This document shows positions 18,702 to 30,952 of a stretch of 44,093 bases of DNA, one piece after another (the first letter of the stretch is position 1; each line of letters opens with the position of its first letter). This stretch comes from Rhodovarius sp. (GTDB lineage: Bacteria; Pseudomonadota; Alphaproteobacteria; Acetobacterales; Acetobacteraceae). The notes under the pieces are model-generated. The model ran no database searches and had not been told where the DNA came from. It saw nothing but the letters and a program-made list of their open reading frames with translations. The position numbers and the translations under genes were made by a program. The DNA lies in the NCBI GenBank assembly GCA_025057055.1, contig JANWYF010000115.1, forward strand, positions 1-44,093, given 5' to 3'.

Positions 18702-19856
18702 ATGCGAGAACAGCTGAGGGTGCTGGTGGTGGGCGCCGGGATTATGGGGCTCTCCGCGGCCTGGGCCCTCTCGGCCCGCGGCTTTGCGGTGGAGGTGCTG
18801 GATGCCGCCCCGCCGCCCAATCCGCGCGGCGCCTCGGTCGATCACCATCGCCTCATTCGCCATGCCTATGGCGCCCAGCATCACTACATGCGCATGGTCG
18901 ATGCGGCCTATGCCGCCTGGGCGCGGATGTTCGCCGATCTGGGCGAGCACCCTCTGATCGAGACCGGCATCCTCGCCACCGATGAGGGGCAGGGGCGCAC
19001 CGCCTGGCTGCAGGAGAGCCGCGCTGCCATGCGCGCCCATGGTCTGGTGGTGGAGGATCTGCCGCCCGCAGCCCTGCCCGCGCGCTTTCCCTGGATCAGC
19101 GCCGAGGCGGTCAAGGATGCCTTCTTCGCCCCGCGCGGGGGCGTGCTGCTCGCCGGGCGCATCGTGGAGCTGCTTGCCCGCCGTCTTGCCCCGCTGATCA
19201 CCCAGGCGCGGGTGGTGGAGGTGGGTGATGGCCGCCTCCGGCTCGCGGACGGGCGCTGGCTGTCGGCCGATTGGGTGGTGGTGGCCGCCGGCCCCTGGGC
19301 GCCGCGGCTGCTGCCGGGGCTGGCCGGGCGCGTGACCGCCTCTCGCCAGGTCGTGGTGCGGCTCGCGCCGCCGCAGGACCTGGCCGAGGCCTGGGTGCGC
19401 GCCCCGATGCTGCTCGACCTCTCGCTCGAGGGCGGCTTCTACCTGGTCCCGCCGGTGGCGGGCACGCCGATCAAGATCGGCGATCATTCCTTCACGCTGC
19501 AAGGCGATGCGGAGGCCGATGACCGCGCGGCGCGGCCCGAGGAGGTATCGGCGCTGCTCGCCCTGGCCGGGCGGCGCATTCCGGGGCTGGAGCGCTACCG
19601 CATCCTGGGTGCCCTCGCCTGCTACTACGACGTCGAACCGCGTGAGGAGTTCATCCTCGAGCCGATCGCGCCGCGCACCGTGGTGATGAGCGGCTTTTCC
19701 GGCCATGGCTTCAAGTTCGGCGCGGTGCTCGGTGAGGCGCTGGCCAATGCCCTGGCTGATCCGGCGCTGCTGCCCGCCCTCGGCCCCTGGGCGGCGGGGC
19801 GCGCCGCACCCGCACCCGGCCTGCTGGCCCCGCCCCGGCCGGAGCTTGCGGCATGA
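18702..19856 (+). CDS. FAD-dependent amine oxidoreductase (monomeric sarcosine oxidase-like)
   Basis: 384 residues, a DAO-family flavoprotein. The dinucleotide-binding motif VLVVGAGIMGLSAAWALSARGFAVEVLD is at residues about 7-34. The arrangement, including YRILGALACYYDVEPREEFILEP near 298-320, matches monomeric sarcosine oxidase and N-methyltryptophan oxidase, where the Cys in this strand (here Cys307) binds FAD covalently; MSGFSGHGFKFGAVLGEALA near the end is the usual FAD/substrate segment. The substrate is probably an N-methyl or other secondary amine acid, but this is inference. The start at 18702 was chosen over the longer frame because it begins directly at the Rossmann fold. Its stop overlaps the acyl-CoA dehydrogenase start by four bases. 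Confidence 0.87.
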   Translation: MREQLRVLVVGAGIMGLSAAWALSARGFAVEVLDAAPPPNPRGASVDHHRLIRHAYGAQHHYMRMVDAAYAAWARMFADLGEHPLIETGILATDEGQGRTAWLQESRAAMRAHGLVVEDLPPAALPARFPWISAEAVKDAFFAPRGGVLLAGRIVELLARRLAPLITQARVVEVGDGRLRLADGRWLSADWVVVAAGPWAPRLLPGLAGRVTASRQVVVRLAPPQDLAEAWVRAPMLLDLSLEGGFYLVPPVAGTPIKIGDHSFTLQGDAEADDRAARPEEVSALLALAGRRIPGLERYRILGALACYYDVEPREEFILEPIAPRTVVMSGFSGHGFKFGAVLGEALANALADPALLPALGPWAAGRAAPAPGLLAPPRPELAA

Positions 19857-21424
19857 GCCGCACCCCGGCCGAGGACATCGCCTTCGCGCTGACGCGGCTG
19901 ATCCCCCTTCCGCAGCGGGAGCCGGGGCTGGACGCTGCGACGGTGGCGGCGATCCTGACCGAGGCGGAGCGCTTCGCGGCCGAGGTCCTAGCCCCCCATG
20001 CCCAGGAGGCGGACCGGATCGGTGCGAGGCTGGAAAATGGGCGGGTGCGCACCCCCTATGCCGCGCCATATGCCGCCTGGCGCGCGGGGGGCTGGCAGTC
20101 CCTGCCGGCGCCGCCTGAACATGGCGGACAGGGCCTGCCCTTCGCCCTCTGGTGCGGGGTGCTCGAGCTCTGCAGCGCGGCCGATATGGCCTTCATGCTC
20201 TGCCCGCTGCTCACCGCCGGCGCGATCGAGGCGATCGCCCGGCATGCGAGCCCCGACCAGCGCGCGCGCTGGCTGCCGCCGCTGATCGCCGCCGAATGGA
20301 CCGGCACCATGTGCCTGACCGAACCGCAGGCGGGCAGCGACCTGTCCGACCTGCGCACGCGGGCCGAGCCGCTGGGCGATGGCCGCTACGCCCTGCACGG
20401 GCAGAAGATCTACATCACCTACGGCGATCACGACCTGACGGAGAACTGCCTGCATCTGGTGCTGGCGCGGCTGCCCGATGCGCCGGCCGGCACGCGCGGC
20501 ATCAGCCTCTTCGCCGCACCGCGGCTGTTGCCCGACGGGCGGGCGAATGCGCTGCGTGCCGCAGGGCTGGAGCGCAAGCTTGGCATCCATGCCAGCCCGA
20601 CCTGCGTCATGCTCTTCGAGGGGGCGGTGGCGGAACTCATCGGCGAGCCGCATCGCGGCCTGTCGGCCATGTTCGCGATGATGAACAACGCGCGCCTGGC
20701 CGTCGGGATCCAGGGGGTGGGGCAGGGGGCGCGCGCCCTCGCCCTGGCTGAGGCCTATGCGGCGCAGCGGATCCAGGGGGGGCGGCCGATCGCGCGCCAT
20801 CCGGATGTGGCGCGCATGCTGGCCGAGATGCGCGCGATCACGACCGCCATGCGCTTTCTCGCGCTCGAGGCTGCCGCGAGCCCGCCTGTCCGCCTCGCGC
20901 TGCTGACCCCGATCGTGAAGGCCTGGTGCACCGACCGCGGGGTGGAGGTCGCCCATCTCGGGCTGCAGGTGCATGGGGGCCTGGGCTACATCGAGGATGC
21001 GGGGGCGGCACAGGTGCTGCGGGATGCCCGCATCGCCCCGATCTATGAGGGGACGAACGGGATCCAGGCGCTCGATCTGGTGCAGCGCAAGCTGCGCGGC
21101 GATGGCGGGGTGGCGATGCTGAGCCTGCTCGAGCAGGAGGTGGCGCCGACCGATCCGCTGCTGGCGGCGGCGGCGGCCCGGCTGGCCGAGGCTGCGCGCT
21201 GGCTCTTGACCGCCCCGGCCGAGGAGGCGGCTGCCGGCGCGACCCCCTTCCTGGAGGCTGCGGGCTGGGTGCTCGGGGGATGGATGCTGGCGCGCGCCGC
21301 CGCCCTCGATGCGGCCTATGCGCCGATGGCGGCCTTCTATCTGCGCCGGCTTTTGCCGCGGGCCGATGCGGCCTTGATCCAGGTCAAGGAGGCCGAGGTT
21401 CTGCTCGCCTGGATGGCGTCTTGA
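19853..21424 (+). CDS. Acyl-CoA dehydrogenase (DmdC-like subfamily)
   Basis: 523 residues. The FAD-binding strand WTGTMCLTEPQAGSDLSDLRTRAEP, the segment GQKIYITYGDHDLTENCLHLVLARL and the catalytic-Glu region IYEGTNGIQALDLVQRKL (Glu399) are clear. The insertions and the extra C-terminal helical domain are those of the long subfamily that includes 3-methylmercaptopropionyl-CoA dehydrogenase (DmdC), although at 523 residues it is shorter than the usual 580-600. The acyl substrate is unknown. Translational coupling to the amine oxidoreductase suggests the two act in one catabolic route. It ends 106 bases before the carotenoid operon. Confidence 0.9.
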   Translation: MSRTPAEDIAFALTRLIPLPQREPGLDAATVAAILTEAERFAAEVLAPHAQEADRIGARLENGRVRTPYAAPYAAWRAGGWQSLPAPPEHGGQGLPFALWCGVLELCSAADMAFMLCPLLTAGAIEAIARHASPDQRARWLPPLIAAEWTGTMCLTEPQAGSDLSDLRTRAEPLGDGRYALHGQKIYITYGDHDLTENCLHLVLARLPDAPAGTRGISLFAAPRLLPDGRANALRAAGLERKLGIHASPTCVMLFEGAVAELIGEPHRGLSAMFAMMNNARLAVGIQGVGQGARALALAEAYAAQRIQGGRPIARHPDVARMLAEMRAITTAMRFLALEAAASPPVRLALLTPIVKAWCTDRGVEVAHLGLQVHGGLGYIEDAGAAQVLRDARIAPIYEGTNGIQALDLVQRKLRGDGGVAMLSLLEQEVAPTDPLLAAAAARLAEAARWLLTAPAEEAAAGATPFLEAAGWVLGGWMLARAAALDAAYAPMAAFYLRRLLPRADAALIQVKEAEVLLAWMAS

Positions 21425-21454: not shown

Positions 21455-21469
21455 CCGTAACGGTTACGG
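21455..21469. promoter_or_regulatory. Perfect palindrome upstream of the carotenoid operon (candidate operator)
   Basis: CCGTAACGGTTACGG is a 7-1-7 perfect inverted repeat. A third GTTAC occurs at 21493-21497. The site is about 60 bases before the first desaturase start and just upstream of a possible -35 box (TTGCTT, 21478-21483), where an activator or repressor would bind. No matching regulator gene lies in the window, and it does not fit the CrtJ/PpsR pattern TGT-N12-ACA. Confidence 0.4.
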
Positions 21470-21530: not shown

Positions 21531-23096
21531 ATGAACGCCTCGCCTGCCGCGCCCTTTGTCCGTCGGCCGCGCCATCATGTTGCGATCATCGGTGCCGGGC
21601 CGGGTGGGCTGGCGGCGGCCATGCTGCTGGCGGCGCGTGGGCTTCGGGTCACCGTCTTCGAGAAGGATCGCGTCCCGGGGGGGCGGACGCGCACCATCGA
21701 GGCACCGGGCGGCTATCGCTTCGACCTCGGCCCGACCTTCTTCCTCTATCCGCGCATCCTGCGGGAGATCTTTGCCGCCTGCGGCGCCGACCTCGAGCGC
21801 GAGGTCGAGCTGATCAAGCTCGATCCGCAATACCGCCTGATCTTCGAGGGGGAGGGCGATTCGCGCGCCATCCTCGATGCGGTGCCCGATGTCGCGCTGA
21901 TGGAGGAGGCGATCCGCCGCATCGCCCCGCAGGATGTGGCCGGCTTTCGCCGCTTCATGGCGGAAAACCGAGTCAAGCTCGACGCCTTCCGGCCGATCCT
22001 CGAGAATCCGATCCTCTCGCCCACCGATCTGCTCAGCCTACCCATGCTCAAGGGGCTGATGCGGATGCGACCGCATCTGACGGTGGATCAGGACCTGCGC
22101 CGCTACTTCAGCGACCCGCGCATCCGCCTCGCCTTCAGTTTCCAGACCAAGTATCTGGGCATGAGCCCCTTCCGCTGCCCGAGCCTGTTTACGATCCTGA
22201 GCTATCTCGAATACGAACACGGCGTCTTTCACGTCAAAGGCGGCCTGGGCACCGTCTCGGTGGCGATGGCGCGGCTGGCCGAACGCCTGGGGGCTGAGAT
22301 CCGCTACCAAAGCCCGGTCGAGCGCATCGCCTTTGCCGGGCGGCGCGCCATCGGCGTGGAGGTGGGCGGGCGGCATGTGGCGGCGGATGCGGTGGTGATG
22401 AACGCCGATTTCGCCCACGCCATGCCGCAGCTGGTGCCCGACCATCTGCGCCGCAAATGGTCGGACGAGAAGATCGAGCGCGCGCAATACTCCTGCTCGA
22501 CCTTCATGCTCTACCTCGGCATCGAGGGCGAGTGCCCGGCGATCGCCCATCACAATGTGCTGCTGTCGAAGGACTACGTGGAGAACATCCACCAGATCGA
22601 GTCCGGGATCATCCCCTCGAAGCCGAGCCTCTATCTGCACAACCCCTCGGCCACCGATCCGACCATGGCCCCGCCCGGGCATACCGCGCTCTATCTGCTG
22701 GTGCCCGTGCCCAATCTGCGTTCCGGCGCCGATTGGTCGCGTGAGCTCGCGCCGTTCCGGGAGATCGCGCTCGATCGCATCCAGTCACTCGGCATTCCTG
22801 ATCTGCGCGCGCGCATCCGCTTCGAGAAGGTGGTCACCCCGCAGGATTGGCGCGACCGCTATGCGGTGGGCTACGGTGCGACCTTCAACCTCTCGCACCG
22901 GATCCGGCAGATGCTGCATTGGCGCCCGGGCAATCGCTTCCAGGATACCGAGGGGCTGTATCTGGTGGGTGGGGGCACGCATCCGGGCAGCGGCCTGCCC
23001 GTGATCTACGAGGGGGCGCGGATCACGACCCGCCTCTTGCTCGAGGATCTGGGCCTGCCCGCGGTGCCGCCCGGCTACGCCATGGCGGCGCAATGA
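21531..23096 (+). CDS. C30 carotenoid desaturase (CrtN-like, CrtI superfamily)
   Basis: 521 residues. The FAD-binding N-terminus HVAIIGAGPGGLAAAMLLAARGLRVTVFEKDRVPGGRTRTIEAPGGYRFDLGPTFFLYP and the C-terminal signature LYLVGGGTHPGSGLPVIYEGARITTRLLL define a phytoene-desaturase-type enzyme. In this operon, with squalene-forming genes, I infer that it desaturates squalene or diapophytoene stepwise to a diapolycopene-like C30 chain, as CrtN does. Whether it makes the desaturations or the terminal oxidation, and which of the two homologues does which, cannot be settled from motifs. ATG 21531 follows GGAGGG closely. First gene of a seven-gene operon. Confidence 0.85.
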   Translation: MNASPAAPFVRRPRHHVAIIGAGPGGLAAAMLLAARGLRVTVFEKDRVPGGRTRTIEAPGGYRFDLGPTFFLYPRILREIFAACGADLEREVELIKLDPQYRLIFEGEGDSRAILDAVPDVALMEEAIRRIAPQDVAGFRRFMAENRVKLDAFRPILENPILSPTDLLSLPMLKGLMRMRPHLTVDQDLRRYFSDPRIRLAFSFQTKYLGMSPFRCPSLFTILSYLEYEHGVFHVKGGLGTVSVAMARLAERLGAEIRYQSPVERIAFAGRRAIGVEVGGRHVAADAVVMNADFAHAMPQLVPDHLRRKWSDEKIERAQYSCSTFMLYLGIEGECPAIAHHNVLLSKDYVENIHQIESGIIPSKPSLYLHNPSATDPTMAPPGHTALYLLVPVPNLRSGADWSRELAPFREIALDRIQSLGIPDLRARIRFEKVVTPQDWRDRYAVGYGATFNLSHRIRQMLHWRPGNRFQDTEGLYLVGGGTHPGSGLPVIYEGARITTRLLLEDLGLPAVPPGYAMAAQ

Positions 23097-23118
23097 CCGA
23101 AGCGGAGGGAGCTCTGAC

Positions 23119-24720
23119 ATGGCAGCGCATGTGGTGGTGATCGGCTCTGGCCTGGGCGGGCTGGCCGCGGCGGTGGTGGCGCGCGCGCGGGGCCATCGCG
23201 TCACGCTGCTTGAGCGCAACCCCTGGCTCGGCGGCAAGGCGGCGGTGCTGCATGTGCCAAGCCCGGACGGCAGCGGCAGCTTCCGCTTCGACATGGGCCC
23301 GACCATCCTGACCGTGCCCAGGGTGTTGCGCCGCATCTACGCCGAGGCCGGGCGCGAACTGCACAAGGAGCTCCCGCTGATCAAGCTCGAGCCGCAATGG
23401 CGCTGCTTCTTCGAGGACGGCACGCGGGCCGACCTGCTGGGCGATGTCGATGCGATGGTCGAGGAGATGCGGCGGGTGACCGGCAACCCGCAGATCGGCG
23501 AGGGCTATCGCCGCTTCCAGCGCATCGCCAAGCACCTGCACGATGTGAGCGAGAAGTTCTTCTTCTGGCGGCCGGTCGAGAGCATCGGTGATACCCTGAA
23601 CCTGGGCGATAGCCTCAAGCCCGATGTGCTGCGCGACGTGATGGCCCTGCGCATGGGCCAGTCGGCGGCGGGGGTCATCCGCAAGAACGTGCCCGACCGC
23701 AACATGGCCCAAATGCTGGACCACTTCATGCAGTATGTGGGCAGCAACCCCTACGCGGCGCCGGCGGTGCTCTGCAGCATCGGGGACATGCAGGCCAGCG
23801 AGGGGGTGTGGTACCCGGTGGGCGGGACCCGCGCGGTGGCCGAGGGGCTCGCGCGCCTGGCCGAGGAGCTGGGGGCGGAACTGCGCACCGGCAGCGAGGT
23901 GGCGGCCCTTGACATCGACCGCGGCCGGGTGCGCGGCGTCCTACTGGCGAGCGGCGAGCGCATCGCCTGCGATGCCGTCATCTCCAACATGGATGCGATC
24001 CGCACCTATACCGAACTCGTCGGCGGGGCGGCGGGCGAGGCCTACGCCAACCGCGGCTACGAACCCGCCTGCAGCGGCGTGGTGCTCTACCTCGGCCTCA
24101 AGCGCCGCTACGAGCACCTGGCCCATCACTGCTTCGTCTTCTCCCGCGATCCGGAGGAGGAGTTCGACGCCATCTACCGGCGCGGCGAACCGGCCCCCGA
24201 TCCGACCGCCTATCTGGCCGCCCCCTCGCTGTCCGACCCGACGGTCGCGCCAGAGGGGGGAGAGGCGCTCTATGTGCTGGTGCATACCCCCTATCTGCGC
24301 CCGCACCACGACTGGTCGCGGATGTTCAAGCCCTATCGTGATGTCATCCTCGGAAAGCTCAAGCGCACGGGGGGGATGGAGGACATCGAGGAGCGCATCG
24401 TGGTCGAACGGCACCTGACGCCAGAGGATATCCACGAACGCTACAAGGTGCTGAACGGCGCGATCTACGGCCTGGCCAGCCACGGCCGCTTCACCGGCGC
24501 CTTCAAGCCCGGCAACCGCTCCCGCCATGTCGAGGGGCTCTATCTCTGCGGGGGCGCGGCCCATCCCGGGCCAGGGATGCCGATGGTGATGATGTCCGGC
24601 TGGATCGCGGCCGATGCGCTGGATGCCGACCTCGGCGGCCGCGGCATGAGCGAGGCAGCCCGCGCCGCCGGCAGCCGCGAGGTGCCGATGATCGCCGCCC
24701 CGCCCCTGATCGCCGCCTAG
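23119..24720 (+). CDS. Second CrtI-superfamily carotenoid desaturase/oxidase (CrtP/CrtNb-like)
   Basis: 533 residues. Rossmann motif VVVIGSGLGGLAAAVVARARGHRVTLLERNPWLGGKAAVL, FDMGPTILTVPRVLRRIYAEAGR, and C-terminal LYLCGGAAHPGPGMPMVMMSGWIAADAL. It differs enough from the previous gene to be a distinct paralogue. In known C30 pathways a second such enzyme (CrtP, or CrtNb) oxidises the terminal methyl group to an aldehyde, which fits the aldehyde dehydrogenase at the end of this operon. It starts 22 bases after the first desaturase with a good GGAGGGAG ribosome-binding site, and its TAG is two bases before the acyltransferase ATG. Confidence 0.83.
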   Translation: MAAHVVVIGSGLGGLAAAVVARARGHRVTLLERNPWLGGKAAVLHVPSPDGSGSFRFDMGPTILTVPRVLRRIYAEAGRELHKELPLIKLEPQWRCFFEDGTRADLLGDVDAMVEEMRRVTGNPQIGEGYRRFQRIAKHLHDVSEKFFFWRPVESIGDTLNLGDSLKPDVLRDVMALRMGQSAAGVIRKNVPDRNMAQMLDHFMQYVGSNPYAAPAVLCSIGDMQASEGVWYPVGGTRAVAEGLARLAEELGAELRTGSEVAALDIDRGRVRGVLLASGERIACDAVISNMDAIRTYTELVGGAAGEAYANRGYEPACSGVVLYLGLKRRYEHLAHHCFVFSRDPEEEFDAIYRRGEPAPDPTAYLAAPSLSDPTVAPEGGEALYVLVHTPYLRPHHDWSRMFKPYRDVILGKLKRTGGMEDIEERIVVERHLTPEDIHERYKVLNGAIYGLASHGRFTGAFKPGNRSRHVEGLYLCGGAAHPGPGMPMVMMSGWIAADALDADLGGRGMSEAARAAGSREVPMIAAPPLIAA

Positions 24721-24722
24721 CG

Positions 24723-25529
24723 ATGGCGCGGCCGGCTGAGCCGAGCCCGGTCGGGCTCTGGTCCGAGAAGGCGATGCGCTTCTTCCACGTCGCCTTCGCC
24801 CGCAGCTTCGCCGGCTCTTTCCGCGCCCTGCGCATCCCGCCCTGGGGCATGCCCGAGGATCACCCGGGCCGCGCCCTGGTCGTCTACGCCAATCATCCCG
24901 GCTGGTGGGACGGGGTGATGTTCATGCTGCTGCTGCGCCGCTTCCACCCCGGGCGGCCGGCCTTCATCCCGATGGATGCGGCGGCGCTGCGCAAATATCC
25001 CTTCATGCGCCGGCTCGGCGTCTTTCCGGTCGAGCAGGAGAGCGCGCGCGGCGCGGTCGCCTTCCTCCGGACGGCGCGCGAGGTCCTGGAGGGCGACCGG
25101 CACATGCTCTGGATGAACGCCCCGGGGCGCTTCTGCGACGTGCGCGAACGGCCCGTGCCGATCTCTCCCGGCATGGTCCGCCTGCCTGAGATCGCACCGC
25201 ATGCCCTCTTCATCCCGCTGGCCTTCGAATACACCTACTGGACCGAAAAGCGCGGCGAGGCGCTGGCCGCCTTCGGCCCGGCCATCGAGGGGGCGGAGCT
25301 CGCTGCCCTGCCGCGACCCGAACGGGCAGAGCGCCTGCGGGCGGCGCTGACCGCCGTGATGGACCGGCTGGCCGCCGATGCGATGACGCGCGACCCCTCC
25401 CGCTTCGTGACCGTGGTCGAGGGCGGGGCGGGTGTCGGCGGCATCTATGGCTTCTGGCAATATCTCAAGGCTCTGGCGCGGCGGGAGAAGCATGACCCCC
25501 ATCATGACCCGCGCGCGGGGAGGAGCTGA
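24723..25529 (+). CDS. PlsC-type acyltransferase of the carotenoid cluster
   Basis: 268 residues. The acyltransferase motif I NHPGWWD (NHxxxxD) is clear, with VFPVEQESARG as a motif II-like segment and HALFIPLAFEYTYW as motif IV. Motif III, normally FPEGTR or, in this subgroup, a sequence like AQGRF, reads NAPGRFCDVRERP, so the usual Glu/Gln is Pro. The position suggests it acylates the sugar of the C30 carotenoid, a job done by the unrelated CrtO in Staphylococcus; lysophospholipid acylation is the alternative. No signal peptide or obvious membrane helix. Confidence 0.78.
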   Translation: MARPAEPSPVGLWSEKAMRFFHVAFARSFAGSFRALRIPPWGMPEDHPGRALVVYANHPGWWDGVMFMLLLRRFHPGRPAFIPMDAAALRKYPFMRRLGVFPVEQESARGAVAFLRTAREVLEGDRHMLWMNAPGRFCDVRERPVPISPGMVRLPEIAPHALFIPLAFEYTYWTEKRGEALAAFGPAIEGAELAALPRPERAERLRAALTAVMDRLAADAMTRDPSRFVTVVEGGAGVGGIYGFWQYLKALARREKHDPHHDPRAGRS

Positions 25530-25550
25530 GCGGCGCAAGGACCAAGAAGC

Positions 25551-26648
25551 ATGGAGTTCGCCCACATCGCCCTGCTGCTGGCGCTGCTGCCGGCCGGCCT
25601 CGGCATCGTCAATCTCCGCCGCCAGCCGCGCCTTCTCGACCGCCCGCCCGAGGGCACGCTGGTCTCGATCCTGATCCCCGCCCGCAACGAGGCCGCCCGG
25701 ATCGGCCCCTGCCTGGAGGCCGCGCTGGCCTCGACCGGGGTCGAGATCGAGGTGCTGGTGATGGATGATGCCAGCAGCGACGAGACGGCGGCGATCGTCG
25801 CCCGCTATGCCGCCCGCGATCCACGCCTCAGGCTGTTGTCCGCCCCGCCCCTGCCGCCGGGCTGGACCGGAAAGGTGCACGCCTGCGCGCGGCTGGCCGA
25901 GCAGGCGCGCGGGACGCATCTGCTCTTCATCGATGCCGATGTCCGCCTCGCCCCCCACGCCGCCGCCGCCATGGCCGCCCACAGCCTGCGGCGGCGCATC
26001 GCCATGGTCAGCGGCGTGCCGCGCCAGATCATCGGCAGCCTGGGCGAGGGGCTGACCGTCCCCTTCATCCACTTCCTCATGCTCTGCTACCTGCCCTGGG
26101 GCGGGCGGGCGGAGCGGCGGGACCCGAGCCTGGCCGCCGCCTGCGGGCAGCTCCTGCTGGTCGAACGGAGGGCCTATGAGGCGGTGGGCGGCCATGCCGC
26201 GATCAGGGGCGTTCTGCATGACGGCATCGCGCTTGCCCGGCTGTTCCGCCGCCGCGGCCACGATACCGAGGTGGTGGACGGCACGCCGCTCGCCACCTGT
26301 CGGATGTATCACGGCTTCGGGGAGGCTTGGCGCGGCTTCCTCAAAAACGCCCATGAGGGGATGGCCACCCCGGTCGGCCTGCCCGTCTGGACAGTGCTGC
26401 TGGCCGGCGCCCATATCTGGCCGTGGTTCCTGCTGCCGGACCCGGAGGCGCTGGCCACCATCCTGCTGATGCTGGGCCTGCGGGCTATCGTCACCCGCCG
26501 CACCGGAGAGCCCTGGTGGACCGTCCCGCTGCATCCGCTGACCGTGCTGGTCGCGCTGGCGATCCAATGGACGGCGCTGGTCCGCATCGCGCTCGGCTTC
26601 AAGCCGGGCTGGAAAGGGCGCGCATATCCCGCCACAACGGGGGCATGA
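25551..26648 (+). CDS. Family 2 glycosyltransferase (CrtQ/HpnB-like)
   Basis: 365 residues. An N-terminal membrane helix (IALLLALLPAGLGIVNL) is followed by a GT-A domain: VSILIPARNEAARIGPCLEAAL, EVLVMDDASSDETAAIV (UDP-sugar Asp), LLFIDADVRLAPHA (metal-binding DAD) and LHDGIALARLFRRRGH (catalytic-base Asp). Two or three C-terminal membrane helices follow (WTVLLAGAHIWPWFLL; LATILLMLGLRAIV; LTVLVALAIQWTALV). This is the membrane-bound group containing CrtQ of staphyloxanthin synthesis and HpnB of hopanoid clusters. I infer that it glycosylates the carotenoid carboxylate made by the operon. Confidence 0.85.
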   Translation: MEFAHIALLLALLPAGLGIVNLRRQPRLLDRPPEGTLVSILIPARNEAARIGPCLEAALASTGVEIEVLVMDDASSDETAAIVARYAARDPRLRLLSAPPLPPGWTGKVHACARLAEQARGTHLLFIDADVRLAPHAAAAMAAHSLRRRIAMVSGVPRQIIGSLGEGLTVPFIHFLMLCYLPWGGRAERRDPSLAAACGQLLLVERRAYEAVGGHAAIRGVLHDGIALARLFRRRGHDTEVVDGTPLATCRMYHGFGEAWRGFLKNAHEGMATPVGLPVWTVLLAGAHIWPWFLLPDPEALATILLMLGLRAIVTRRTGEPWWTVPLHPLTVLVALAIQWTALVRIALGFKPGWKGRAYPATTGA

Positions 26649-26691
26649 CGGATCGCCGCGCCGCCCCGCCTGCCGCTTGGGGGATCGCCCC

Positions 26692-28320
26692 ATGAGCGAG
26701 ACGACGCTGGCCGCCCCCGGCCCCCCCCAGCGGGACCACGACACCGAAAACTTCCCGACCGCGAGCCTGATCCTGGCCCGGCCGCTGCGTGCCAAGGTGA
26801 TGGCTTTCTACCGCTTCGTCCGCACCGCGGATGACATCGCCGACAGCCCAGACCTGACGCCGGAGGAAAAGCTGCGGCGGCTGGATGCCATGGGGGCGGC
26901 GCTGCTGGATCCCGCCACCAGCTTGCGCGAGGCGCGGCGGATGCAGCTGGAAGCCGTCGGCCATGCCGAGGCGCTGCTGATGCTCGAGGCCTTCCGCCAG
27001 GATGCGCAGCAGTCGCGCTATCCGGACTGGCCGGCGCTTCTCGCCTATTGCGCCCGCAGCGCCGATCCGGTCGGGCGCATGCTGCTGCGGCTGCACGGCA
27101 CCACGGACCCGGCGGCGATCGGCGCCTCCGATGCGCTCTGCACCGCCCTGCAGATCCTCAATCATCTGCAGGACCTGGTGCCCGACCGGCAGAGGCTCGA
27201 CCGGGTCTATCTGCCCCAGTCCTGGCTGGCATTGGCCGGGGGGGAGGAGGCCTTCTTCGCTCCCGACAATCCGGCGCGCCGGGCCGTGCTGGATGCCGTG
27301 CTCGATCGGGTGGAGGAACAGCTCGACCGCGCCTGCGCCCTGCCGCGGCTGATCGCCTCGCGCCGGCTGGCGGTGCAGGCCGCGATGACGCTCGCCCTGG
27401 CTCGGCGGCTGCTTGAGCGGTTGCGGGCGGCCGACCCCGTCCTCGGGCGCGTGGCGCTGCGCCGGACCGATTTCGCCCGCGCCCTTCTCTCGGGGCTGAC
27501 CTTGGGCCCGCGCGATCGGGCCATCGTTGCCGCCCGGGTGGCCCGCGCCGGCTCGAGCTTCGGGCGGGGCATGAAGGCCCTGCGCGGGCAACGCCGCCGC
27601 GCCCTGTGGGCAGTCTATGCCTTCTGCCGGGCGGTGGATGACATCGCCGACGGTGCGATGCCCGAGGTCGAGAAGCGCCGCTTCCTGGCCGCCTGGCGGG
27701 GCAAGCTGGAACGTCCGGACTGCGCCCTCTCGCGCGAGCTCGCCCTCGCCTGCCGGAGCTTCGACATCCCGCGCAGCGAATGCGAGGCGATGATCGCGGG
27801 CATGGAGACGGACGCCACCGAGCGCCTGCGCCTGCCGGACCAGGCGGCGCTCGACCTCTACTGCCGGCAGGTGGCGGGCAGCGTGGGGGCGATGGCGGTG
27901 CGGATCTTCGGCGCACCGGAGGCCGAGGCCTGGGGGCTCCGCCTCGGTCATACCTTCCAGCTCACCAACATCCTGCGCGACGTCGATGAGGATGCGGCGC
28001 GCGAGCGGGTCTATATCCCGCTCTCCCTGCTGGCCGAGGCCGGCATCCCCGACGGTCCGGCGCGCGAGATCGTGCGGCATCCGGCCTTTCCTGGCCTGTG
28101 CGCCCGGCTGGCCGAGCAGGTGCGGGAGGGATTCGCCCGTGCTGAGGCCGAACTCCCCCGCTACGATGCCAAGGCGCTGCTGCCGGCGCGGGTGATGATG
28201 TGGGGCTATCAGCGGCTGTTCCAGCGTCTGATCGCCCGCGGCTTCGAGGGGGACCGCCCGCGCCCGCGCCTCAGCCTGGCCGAGAAGCTCACCATGGCGC
28301 GGATGGCGCTTGGCCTATGA
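26692..28320 (+). CDS. HpnC-HpnD fusion: bifunctional hydroxysqualene/presqualene synthase
   Basis: 542 residues containing two complete isoprenoid synthase domains. The first (about 1-265) is HpnC-like: FPTASLILARPLRAKVMAFYRFVRTADDIADS with DDIAD at 47-51, and ILNHLQDLVPDRQRLDRVYLP with NHLQD at 157-161. The second (about 280-542) is HpnD-like: SSFGRGMKALRGQRRRALWAVYAFCRAVDDIADG with DDIAD at 316-320, and FQLTNILRDVDEDAARERVYIP with DVDED at 430-434. HpnD turns two farnesyl diphosphates into presqualene diphosphate and HpnC turns that into hydroxysqualene; they are normally separate adjacent genes. No stop or frameshift separates them here. The start at 26692 was chosen (MSETTLAAP); a TTG 15 bases upstream is less likely. 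The stop overlaps hpnE by four bases. Confidence 0.9.
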   Translation: MSETTLAAPGPPQRDHDTENFPTASLILARPLRAKVMAFYRFVRTADDIADSPDLTPEEKLRRLDAMGAALLDPATSLREARRMQLEAVGHAEALLMLEAFRQDAQQSRYPDWPALLAYCARSADPVGRMLLRLHGTTDPAAIGASDALCTALQILNHLQDLVPDRQRLDRVYLPQSWLALAGGEEAFFAPDNPARRAVLDAVLDRVEEQLDRACALPRLIASRRLAVQAAMTLALARRLLERLRAADPVLGRVALRRTDFARALLSGLTLGPRDRAIVAARVARAGSSFGRGMKALRGQRRRALWAVYAFCRAVDDIADGAMPEVEKRRFLAAWRGKLERPDCALSRELALACRSFDIPRSECEAMIAGMETDATERLRLPDQAALDLYCRQVAGSVGAMAVRIFGAPEAEAWGLRLGHTFQLTNILRDVDEDAARERVYIPLSLLAEAGIPDGPAREIVRHPAFPGLCARLAEQVREGFARAEAELPRYDAKALLPARVMMWGYQRLFQRLIARGFEGDRPRPRLSLAEKLTMARMALGL

Positions 28321-29633
28321 GCGCGATCCATGTTGTCGGCGGCGGGGTGGCGGGCTTGGCCGGGGCGCTGGCCCTGGCCCGCGCCGGCCGGCCCGTCGTC
28401 CTGCATGAGGCCGCGCCGATGGCTGGCGGGCGGGCGCGGGCGCTTGCCGACGGCACGGACAACGGGACCCATGCCCTGGTCGGGGCCAATACCGCGGCCC
28501 TGCGCTTTCTGGAGCGGATCGGGGCGCGCAGCGGTTGGCTGGAGCCCGAGCCGGAGGGGCTGCCCGTGCTCGACCTCGCCGACAATTCGGCGCGGCGCAT
28601 CGCCCTCTCTCCCTTCGCCTGGTGGCGGCGCAGCCGGCGCCCCCCCGGCTGTTCGATCGGGGCGGTGCTGGCCATGGCACGGCTCGCCTCGCCCTGGCGG
28701 GATGTGCCGGTGGCGCGCGCCATGGCGGAGCATCCGGCCTTTCACCGCAGCTTCGTCGACCCGCTGGTGATGGCCACCCTCAATACACCGAGCAGCGAGG
28801 CAAGCTCGGCCCGGCTCGGGCAGGTGCTGCGCCGGCTCGGCGCGCCGGGGGCGACGCGGCTTTTGGTGGCCGAACGCGGCCTCGGCCCCGATCTGGTGGA
28901 ACCCGCCCTGGATGCGCTGCGCGCGGCCGGGGTGGATATCCGCTTCAACTCCCGCCTGCGTGCCATCGAGGTGGAGGAGGGGCGTCTCTCCGCGCTGATC
29001 TTCGATTCGCGCATCCATGCCGATGCCGCGCTGCTCGCCCTGCCGCCCTGGGAGGCGGCGCGGCTTCTGCCCGGCCTGCCGGTGCCCGAGGCCTTCGCCC
29101 CGATCGTCAATCTCCATTTCGAACGGAAGGGGCCGGGCCCGGTCAGGTTCCTGGGCTGCCTCGGCGGGCTCTGCCAATGGGTGCTGGTGCGCCCCTCCGG
29201 TGTGGCGGTCACCGTCTCGGCCGGGGATGCCGAGGCCGAACTGCCAGCCGAGGCCCTGGCCCCCCGCGCCTGGGCCGAGGTGCTGCGGCTCGCGGCTGTC
29301 TTCCGCCTGCCGGGCGAGTGGCCGCTGCAGCCGCCGCGCTGCCGGGTGGTGAAGGAACGGCGCGCAACACCGCGTCACCTCCCCGGCCCGCCGCCGGCCC
29401 CGCCGCGGCGGCCGCTGCCCAACCTCGCCCTGGCCGGGGATTGGACCTGGCCGCACCTGCCCGCCACCATCGAGGCCGCGGTGCGCAGCGGAGAGGCCGC
29501 CGCTGCCGCGTTGCTTGGCGTACCCCTGGGCAATACCCCGATCCGGCTGCCGCGGCGGGGTGCTTGGCTCTCCCTGCCCGAGACGCGGACGGTCGGGGCT
29601 GCTGCCAATGGCCGGGCGGCGCGCAGCCCATGA
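28317..29633 (+). CDS. hpnE: Hydroxysqualene dehydroxylase HpnE
   Basis: 438 residues, an FAD-dependent amine-oxidase-fold enzyme. It begins IHVVGGGVAGLAGALALARAGRPVVLHEAAPMAGGRARAL and ends with LALAGDWTWPHLPATIEAAVRSGEAAAAALL, the HpnE arrangement (TDW/GDWT-type C-terminus). HpnE reduces hydroxysqualene to squalene. Its ATG overlaps the HpnC-HpnD fusion stop (ATGA) and its own stop overlaps the aldehyde dehydrogenase ATG, so translation is coupled in both directions. The lack of a squalene-hopene cyclase beside it, and the carotenoid genes upstream, suggest the squalene is used here for C30 carotenoids, though hopanoid genes could be elsewhere. Confidence 0.9.
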   Translation: MSAIHVVGGGVAGLAGALALARAGRPVVLHEAAPMAGGRARALADGTDNGTHALVGANTAALRFLERIGARSGWLEPEPEGLPVLDLADNSARRIALSPFAWWRRSRRPPGCSIGAVLAMARLASPWRDVPVARAMAEHPAFHRSFVDPLVMATLNTPSSEASSARLGQVLRRLGAPGATRLLVAERGLGPDLVEPALDALRAAGVDIRFNSRLRAIEVEEGRLSALIFDSRIHADAALLALPPWEAARLLPGLPVPEAFAPIVNLHFERKGPGPVRFLGCLGGLCQWVLVRPSGVAVTVSAGDAEAELPAEALAPRAWAEVLRLAAVFRLPGEWPLQPPRCRVVKERRATPRHLPGPPPAPPRRPLPNLALAGDWTWPHLPATIEAAVRSGEAAAAALLGVPLGNTPIRLPRRGAWLSLPETRTVGAAANGRAARSP

Positions 29634-30952
29634 CCAGCCCCGCGGAAGCGCTGGCGGCGCTGGCCGGCCGCCCCGCCCTGCCGGTGGAAGAGAGGCGCCG
29701 GCTGCTTGCCGCGCTGGCCGATGAACTGCGGCGCCGCGCCCTGGATTGCGCCGCCGCCGCCGCCGCCGATTTCGGCCGCCGCAGCGAGACGGAGACGCTG
29801 CTGGCCGATGTGCTGATCGTGATCGATGCCGCCCGCTATGCACGGCGACGGGTACGGCGCTGGGCGCGCTGGCGCGGCTGCCGCGTGCCCTATCCCTTCT
29901 GGCCCGCGCGCGCCTGGCTCGAGCCGGTGCCGAAAGGCGTGGTCGGCATCATGGCGCCCTGGAACTATCCCTTCCAGCTGGCGCTGATGCCGGCGGTGGA
30001 TGCGATCGCGGCCGGCAATCGGGTGGCGATCAAGCCCTCGGAACATACGCCGCGCTGCGCTGGCCTGCTGGCCGAGATCATCGCCGCCGCCTGGGGGCCG
30101 GAGATCGCCCAGGTGGTCATCGGGGATGCTGCGGTCGCGGTCGAGTTCGCCGCGCAGCCCTGGGATCATCTGGTCTTCACCGGCGGGACCGCGGCCGGAC
30201 GGCGGGTTGCCGTTGCCGCTGCCGCGCATCTGACGCCGGTGACGCTCGAACTCGGCGGGAAGTGCCCGGCCCTGGTCCTGCCGCGGGCCGATCTGGCGCG
30301 CGCCGCGCGGCAGATCCTTCTCGCCAAGAAGGTGAATGCAGGCCAGACCTGCGTGGCGCCCGATACGGTGCTCCTCGTCGGCCACTCCGCCGAGGCCTTC
30401 CGCAGCGCCGCCCGTGCGGTCGATCTCGGTCCGGCGGAGACGGCGGTGATCAATGCCCTCCAGCAGGCGCGGCTGGATCGGCTGGCGGAGGGGGCGCGGC
30501 TCACCCCCCTCTCGGGCGGGCTCGCGCTGGCCGAGGCTCCGCCCGACCACCCCCTCCACCACGAGGAGATCTTCGGCCCCCTGCTTGCCCTGCGCGCCTG
30601 CGCCGACCTCGCCGAGGCGATCGACATCATCGCCCGCGGTCCGGCGCCGCTCGCGGTTTATCTCTTCGGCGCGACCGAGGAGGAGGAGGCCGAGGTGGCG
30701 GAGCGGACGAAGAGCGGCGCCCTCGTCATCGGCCGGGCGGTCGAATATGCCGGCTTTCACACCCTGCCCTTCGGCGGCGTCGGCGCCTCGGGCCATGGCC
30801 GGCGCAATGCCGAGGCAGGGTTTCTCGAGTTCTCCCACCTCCGCGCGCGGGTCCGGCATGGCCCCTTCAGCCTCTCGCGCCTGTTCGATCCGCCGCGCAG
30901 CGACTGGGCGCGGCGGCTGACACGACGCCTCGTGGGCCTGCCGCCCCGCTAG
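29630..30952 (+). CDS. Aldehyde dehydrogenase, probably acting on C30 carotenoid aldehyde
   Basis: 440 residues, short class-3-like aldehyde dehydrogenase. Motifs: KGVVGIMAPWNYPFQLALMPAVDAIAAGNRVAIKPSEHTPR, VFTGGTAAGRRVA, LELGGKCPALVL with Glu207, and NAGQTCVAP with catalytic Cys241; the C-terminal GGVGASGHGRRNAEAGFLEFSH is as in coniferyl-aldehyde or fatty-aldehyde dehydrogenases. In C30 pathways such an enzyme oxidises 4,4'-diapo-carotenal to the acid before glycosylation, which fits its place as last gene of the operon. It overlaps hpnE by four bases and converges on the DUF599 gene 69 bases away. Confidence 0.88.
   Translation: MTSPAEALAALAGRPALPVEERRRLLAALADELRRRALDCAAAAAADFGRRSETETLLADVLIVIDAARYARRRVRRWARWRGCRVPYPFWPARAWLEPVPKGVVGIMAPWNYPFQLALMPAVDAIAAGNRVAIKPSEHTPRCAGLLAEIIAAAWGPEIAQVVIGDAAVAVEFAAQPWDHLVFTGGTAAGRRVAVAAAAHLTPVTLELGGKCPALVLPRADLARAARQILLAKKVNAGQTCVAPDTVLLVGHSAEAFRSAARAVDLGPAETAVINALQQARLDRLAEGARLTPLSGGLALAEAPPDHPLHHEEIFGPLLALRACADLAEAIDIIARGPAPLAVYLFGATEEEEAEVAERTKSGALVIGRAVEYAGFHTLPFGGVGASGHGRRNAEAGFLEFSHLRARVRHGPFSLSRLFDPPRSDWARRLTRRLVGLPPR

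Follow-up and report, generated by a model that had tools for sequence, protein, structure and literature searches.

The DNA analysed here, referred to as the window, is an entire contig of 44,093 nucleotides (JANWYF010000115.1; contig C116 of the assembly) from a Rhodovarius sp. genome of 3.07 Mb in 251 contigs, which is 97.5% complete. The G+C content of the window is 70.9%. Scans of the window proteins with NCBIfam and Pfam profiles assigned families to seven genes, all on the plus strand at positions 21531-30952, which very probably constitute, as judged by homology, an operon for a C30 carotenoid made by the squalene route (Table 1). A previous sequence-only reading had proposed seven same-strand genes with overlaps or short gaps at the same coordinates, and the family scans confirmed this layout. 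The two families of its "HpnC-HpnD" were also recovered; however, they belong to a single fused protein, and HpnE starts at 28317.

Table 1. Genes of the putative C30 carotenoid operon and its upstream neighbour.
Feature	Position	Strand	Family evidence
Acyl-CoA dehydrogenase, upstream neighbour, possible eighth gene	19853..21424	+	PF00441/PF02771/PF02770
CrtN-type desaturase, squalene-route clade	21531..23096	+	TIGR02734 517 bits (cut-off 238); tree
CrtP-type terminal oxidase	23119..24720	+	TIGR02734 386 bits (cut-off 238); tree
PlsC-type acyltransferase, likely META1p3664 counterpart	24723..25529	+	PF01553 31.6 bits (cut-off 23)
Family-2 glycosyltransferase, likely META1p3663 counterpart	25551..26648	+	PF00535 70 bits
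Fused HpnC-HpnD	26692..28320	+	TIGR03464 315 bits (cut-off 250), TIGR03465 314 bits (cut-off 279)
HpnE, hydroxysqualene dehydroxylase	28317..29633	+	TIGR03467 267 bits (cut-off 283)
Aldehyde dehydrogenase, candidate diapolycopenedial dehydrogenase	29630..30952	+	PF00171 226 bits

The intergenic gaps from CrtN through HpnCD are, in order, 22, 2, 21, and 43 bp, while the HpnCD/HpnE and HpnE/aldehyde dehydrogenase (ALDH) junctions are 4-bp ATGA overlaps, at 28317 and 29630, that would fit translational coupling. The gene downstream of the ALDH gene, encoding a DUF599 protein, is convergent; thus, the transcription unit probably ends at the ALDH gene.

The gene order was compared over 123 loci, comprising 36 stretches around HpnCD from genomes of the order and 87 loci found by CrtP in plasmid and genome collections. 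Six locus pairs represented the same place, leaving 117 distinct places, and the counts are not population frequencies, as the loci were selected for HpnCD or CrtP content. All seven genes occurred together, each with more than 50% identity, in 39 loci (34 places), and in every one of these 39 HpnCD was a single match of 480 residues or more, uninterrupted by stops. The exact order acyl-CoA dehydrogenase-CrtN-CrtP-acyltransferase-glycosyltransferase-HpnCD-HpnE-ALDH was present in 32 loci (29 places). Named carriers include Roseococcus thiosulfatophilus, Roseicella, Falsiroseomonas, Roseomonas ponticola, and Paeniroseomonas, and the nearest relative in the collections was a contig of a metagenome-assembled genome (MAG; locus L145) with CrtN and CrtP each 85% identical to those of the window. 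The synteny search proposed in the sequence-only reading thus showed that the order recurs across genera, and its conservation indicates that the arrangement is not due to chance. The same recurrence in the sampled genomes and loci led us to reject the operon as a rarity: the one-unit arrangement, described earlier as unusual, is widespread in Roseomonas-type genomes and partly present in Microvirga and Salinarimonas.

Other loci carried parts of the set. Of the 123 loci, 44 had the acyl-CoA dehydrogenase gene next to CrtN. Microvirga and Salinarimonas loci had CrtN-CrtP-acyltransferase-glycosyltransferase-HpnCD-HpnE, in Microvirga massiliensis together with the dehydrogenase. Methylobacterium loci contained CrtP, the acyltransferase, the glycosyltransferase, and a mostly separate CrtN, with no hpn genes within the stretch compared, and two loci (L149 and L157) had CrtN-CrtP-acyltransferase-glycosyltransferase-ALDH, likewise with no hpn genes within the stretch. 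No CrtN or CrtP row was obtained at the cut-off in six of the 36 HpnCD stretches (L062, L063, L064, L070, L077, and L079), and one further HpnCD stretch (L080) yielded no row at all. In a population sample of 250 genomes of the order, whose listed rows all belonged to the family of the window, 83 genomes contained CrtP at E <= 1e-110 (62 close and 21 more distant matches), and at least 60 contained HpnCD as a one-frame match of 480 residues or more.

The ALDH, which bears the motifs GQTC and LELGGK, was present at E <= 1e-110 in 55 of the 250 genomes. All 55 carried CrtP, and the enzyme was absent from all 167 CrtP-free genomes (Fisher p ~1e-34, kinship ignored). At least 60 genomes had the fused HpnCD; the 60 listed comprised 50 with both CrtP and ALDH, five with CrtP only, five with neither, and none with ALDH only (p 4.6e-5, kinship ignored). 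In the ALDH tree, the cluster-linked enzymes formed at least two lineages. The first (13 rows, support 100/99) placed the window enzyme with those of Roseomonas-type genomes and of two Microvirga species; 12 of its rows were cluster-linked, and one was an unlinked copy from a genome with CrtP. The second (six rows, 100/100) united Azospirillum, Skermanella, Elstera, and Gluconobacter, with a long-branch warning that concerned chiefly the Gluconobacter row. A Limimaricola/Palleronia pair had no firm placement, and 11 relatives from CrtP-free genomes formed, together with two unlinked Microvirga copies, a separate group (98/97). After these 11 controls had been added, the treatment of all cassette-adjacent ALDHs as one orthologous group was rejected; in the first tree, which had no CrtP-free controls, the group would have looked wider. 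Identical rows were left out of the control-included tree (L191 and L192) and of the first tree (L181 and L183).

The ALDH might instead be an unrelated detoxifying enzyme of the coniferyl or benzaldehyde type that stands in the operon by chance. Its best NCBIfam matches are generic (MdlD, 212 bits against a cut-off of 550), and relatives are common in the class: at E <= 1e-60 they occurred in 50 of 385 genomes of a class-wide sample, with 35-51% identity, and only two of the eight CrtP-positive genomes of that sample were among them. These counts imply that, beyond the close clade, similarity is not diagnostic and linkage is. The ATGA overlap with HpnE, the presence of CrtP in all 55 genomes with the orthologue, the persistence of the ALDH beside CrtN-CrtP-acyltransferase-glycosyltransferase in L149 and L157, and the separation of the 13-row clade from the relatives in CrtP-free genomes make chance placement of a detoxifying enzyme unlikely.

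The HpnC and HpnD models both scored above their cut-offs within a single open frame, HpnC at approximately residues 15-269 and HpnD at 283-536. The frame begins with TTG at 26677, and the likely start is the ATG at 26692. Each half has two Asp-rich motifs, and the Asp residues that open and close each of them were invariant across 33 fusions. The AlphaFold2 model of HpnCD had a mean confidence (pLDDT) of 92.2 and a predicted template modelling score (pTM) of 0.90, and a Foldseek search with it retrieved CrtM-type and HpnC structures in alignments of about half the model length. The conserved residues and the model support the view that HpnCD retains two putatively intact active sites; that it passes presqualene diphosphate between them is speculation. 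The fusion was rejected as a novelty, as the passages available of PMC5462960 described fused HpnCD in 2017.

No HpnCDE other than HpnCD-HpnE was found in the assembly, where a squalene-hopene cyclase gene is also present, split between the ends of two contigs; HpnCD-HpnE are therefore probably shared by pigment and hopanoids rather than being a private pigment supply, and squalene from the operon would be the only visible hopanoid supply as well. A cyclase match was found in five of six relatives checked. The presence of a cyclase and of no other such hpn genes also suits a different explanation, in which HpnCD-HpnE serve hopanoid synthesis for the most part and the crt genes are merely co-located and use another C30 or C40 precursor, as do two genomes (G098 and G122) that have HpnCD-HpnE and the cyclase with no CrtP match at E <= 1e-110. 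Against this explanation, PF00494 matched at four genome places: two are the HpnCD halves, one is CrtB-like (384 bits against a cut-off of 500), and one is weakly HpnD-like (70 bits), with no further diapophytoene synthase candidate. The opposite combination also occurs, as genome G189 has CrtP and HpnCD-HpnE with no cyclase match; there, HpnCD-HpnE lie beside an acyl-CoA dehydrogenase gene, and on another contig CrtP is separated from ALDH by 2.0 kb, a gap whose size suggests that it holds the acyltransferase and glycosyltransferase genes. Squalene was identified as the pigment precursor by deletion in Azospirillum in the passages available of PMC13274349, and the same is reported for Methylobacterium extorquens PA1 in work cited in PMC10448405. 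Mere co-location is thus highly improbable.

The window CrtN and CrtP were placed in a CrtI-family tree of 50 rows. CrtN fell in a 19-row clade (100/100) with Methylorubrum, Methylobacterium, Microvirga, Azospirillum, and others, and CrtP in a second 19-row clade (100/100) that joined two Bacilli CrtP-type proteins at 97/91; the Bacilli CrtN and CrtP labels were assigned by neighbourhood and similarity rather than record annotation, and some of these branches are long. The branching among squalene-route CrtN, Bacilli CrtN, and C40 CrtI was poorly resolved (82/49). Within this limit, the desaturase phylogeny suggested earlier as a check placed both proteins in squalene-route clades and not with C40 CrtI/CrtD. 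A C40 role for both, one as an additional phytoene desaturase and the other as an enzyme resembling CrtD or a ketolase, would suit their matches to the general TIGR02734 model, the weak CrtN branching, and the C40 and reaction-centre genes of the host, but it was rejected by tree placement, as the host's own CrtI and two CrtD-type proteins grouped with the C40 references outside both window clades, and it is the least probable of the three alternatives.

The host CrtI and the two CrtD-type proteins (G000:C198 and C143), one above and one below the CrtD cut-off, are encoded elsewhere in the genome, which also contains two PF00124 reaction-centre genes. These genes point to a phototrophic host that has a C40 pathway in addition to the C30 operon. 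The host is related to the pink genus Roseococcus, and Roseococcus thiosulfatophilus reportedly contains C30 carotene-dioates. According to the title of one paper, most of the polar carotenoids of this species are not bound to the photosynthetic complexes.

Comparison with four Methylorubrum loci, AM1 itself not being among them, gave identities of 58-59% for CrtN and 68% for CrtP; those to two Azospirillum brasilense strains, Sp7 not being one of them, were 58% and 66-67%. The acyltransferase, which has an HPGWWD (HX4D) motif at residue 58, was 46-48% identical to the CrtP-adjacent homologues of the Methylorubrum loci, and the glycosyltransferase was 56-58% identical to homologues in matching order. 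The latter scored 128 bits with CruG and 120 with HpnB, both far under the equivalog cut-offs. A glycosyltransferase and an acyltransferase of the AM1 type thus adjoin CrtP in the window.

From the observed gene content and order, family and clade membership, and motif conservation, we infer the reactions in the host, the role of the ALDH, and the exact product, including the number and position of its sugar and acyl groups. The HpnD half would convert two farnesyl diphosphates to presqualene diphosphate, the HpnC half would convert this to hydroxysqualene, and HpnE would reduce it to squalene. CrtN and CrtP would then introduce double bonds into the C30 chain and turn its termini into aldehydes, which the ALDH would oxidise further to give the dicarboxylic acid 4,4'-diapolycopenedioate. 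Glucose would be attached as an ester by the glycosyltransferase, and the PlsC-type enzyme would acylate the sugar. The most likely product is an acylated glucosyl ester of diapolycopenedioate. The glycosylated and acylated diapolycopenoic-acid-type pigment predicted earlier is thus supported by phylogeny and by an order shared with the tested Methylobacterium and Azospirillum cassettes.

Several observations weigh against a squalene-route operon with this ALDH. HpnE scored under the curated cut-off; it was by far the best match of 20 genome places and the sole full-length one. Seven of the 62 close-CrtP genomes lacked the ALDH (G022, G105, G177, G196, G197, G202, and G217), and G105 is one of two genomes of the same genus in the sample. 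Seven of the 62 (G012, G139, G161, G196, G202, G204, and G215) had no full-length fused HpnCD among the matches listed; G196 and G202, which lack both, are very fragmented. In addition, the best ALDH matches of all 11 Methylobacterium and Methylorubrum genomes, the only matches placed for them, fell outside both cluster lineages; thus, a window-type ALDH cannot be universal for the step.

The operon is neither rare nor a new mechanism, and its function was correctly read as far as homology tells. It had also been considered a good test of the squalene route; that route has already been examined by gene deletion elsewhere, according to the parts available of PMC13274349. The arrangement may well be catalogued already in the 2022 PNAS paper on the squalene route. 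Our literature search found no paper on Roseomonas with diapolycopene or C30 carotenoids, nor any on carotenoid, squalene, and crtN in Acetobacteraceae. The gene clusters of this family were surveyed in 2021 in a paper that covers hopanoids (PMC8776678); in the passages seen and its hopanoid section C30 carotenoids are unmentioned, and "carotenoid" appears twice, with aryl polyenes. Our results suggest that C30 pigments are produced in Roseomonas-type bacteria from squalene shared with hopanoids, and that this host has them in addition to C40 carotenoids. The operon would also offer a compact, self-contained source of the predicted pathway from squalene to an acylglucosyl C30 carotenoid, movable as one piece.

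The ALDH comparison is the most useful part of the analysis and opens a test. It suggests that the dial-to-acid step is filled by different enzyme lineages, and the window enzyme is a concrete candidate for the reaction whose enzyme Mo et al. (2023) were unable to identify in M. extorquens. We give about even chances to a combined proposal that the C30 cassette recruited a carboxylating ALDH more than once (in the Roseomonas-type/Microvirga lineage, in that of Azospirillum, Skermanella, Elstera, and Gluconobacter, and perhaps in Limimaricola/Palleronia, with none recognisable in Methylobacterium) and that the HpnC-HpnD fusion may pass presqualene diphosphate between its sites. Repeated recruitment, if true, would explain the failed homology searches for the enzyme in Methylobacterium.

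Some features were noted around the window operon and related cassettes. The acyl-CoA dehydrogenase gene ends 106 bp before CrtN; in L070 such a gene adjoins HpnCD, the pigment genes lying elsewhere. A near-perfect palindrome (21455-21469; 7-base arms, 1-base spacer) about 75 bp before CrtN was rejected as a conserved regulatory site, as it was found in none of 115 other upstream regions examined, seven of which preceded another CrtI-family gene (28-34% identical) at a locus without CrtN. A DUF2141-domain gene lies near the CrtN-CrtP-acyltransferase-glycosyltransferase cassette in four of five annotated alphaproteobacterial plasmid regions (L094, L095, L096, and L100, not L098). In Microvirga ossetica, CrtN and CrtP are separated by a methyltransferase gene (L094, 8752-9834), and in Palleronia a sulfotransferase gene (L100, 12352-13461) follows the glycosyltransferase gene; both hint at other pigment decorations. 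In Gluconobacter thailandicus (L096, NZ_CP043044), the cassette is on a plasmid typed as conjugative, with insertion sequence genes flanking one side of the viewed stretch. A contig binned in a Verrucomicrobiales MAG (L180) carries the cassette with 42-60% identity to that of the window, by either transfer or mis-binning.

Among known systems, M. extorquens AM1 was compared through META1p3663-3665 and 3670 and HpnCDE 1815-1817, with proteins represented by Methylorubrum relatives. As in the window, its CrtN, CrtP, PlsC-type acyltransferase, and glycosyltransferase, which look orthologous, share the CrtP-acyltransferase-glycosyltransferase order and a squalene precursor. The parts available of PMC10448405 (Mo et al., 2023) report 4-[2-O-11Z-octadecenoyl-beta-glucopyranosyl]-4,4'-diapolycopenedioic acid as the product, colourless CrtN and CrtP mutants, deletion and complementation of the glycosyltransferase and acyltransferase, no CrtO homologue, and no effect of deleting two ALDH candidates. 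Unlike in the window, hpnCDE are separate genes at another locus beside the hopene cyclase gene, and no ALDH was identified there. The crtNPOQ-aldH locus of A. brasilense has the same pigment cassette with an adjacent ALDH, whereas its hpnCDE are elsewhere and its ALDH is of a different clade; in strain Sp7, deletion of crtNPOQ abolished the pigment with accumulation of squalene, and deletion of hpnCDE also abolished it (PMC13274349, as far as available). For Methylomonas, which lacks hpnCDE, the passages seen of PMC10745290 report an ALDH for the same step. The fused hpnC-hpnD genes of subdivision-2 Acidobacteria, some Actinobacteria, and Rhodospirillum centenum resemble that of the window but are reported, in the part seen of PMC5462960, in a hopanoid context. 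The staphyloxanthin system CrtMNPQO-AldH shares C30 desaturation, terminal oxidation, glycosylation, and acylation (per PMC10448405, as far as available), so that the earlier label "staphyloxanthin-type" fits the tailoring logic; however, it fits loosely, as staphyloxanthin starts from dehydrosqualene via CrtM and uses an acyltransferase different from the PlsC-type (PF01553) enzyme of the window. A CrtM start was rejected for the window, as no candidate stood out and no CrtM-type synthase was present among the four PF00494 places of the genome, for which no CrtM-specific model was searched. The Microvirga ossetica plasmid NZ_CP016619 (L094) has co-directional CrtN, CrtP, acyltransferase, glycosyltransferase, fused HpnCD, and HpnE genes and an adjacent ALDH of the same clade as that of the window, but the ALDH gene is divergently oriented, a methyltransferase gene separates CrtN and CrtP, and ispH follows.

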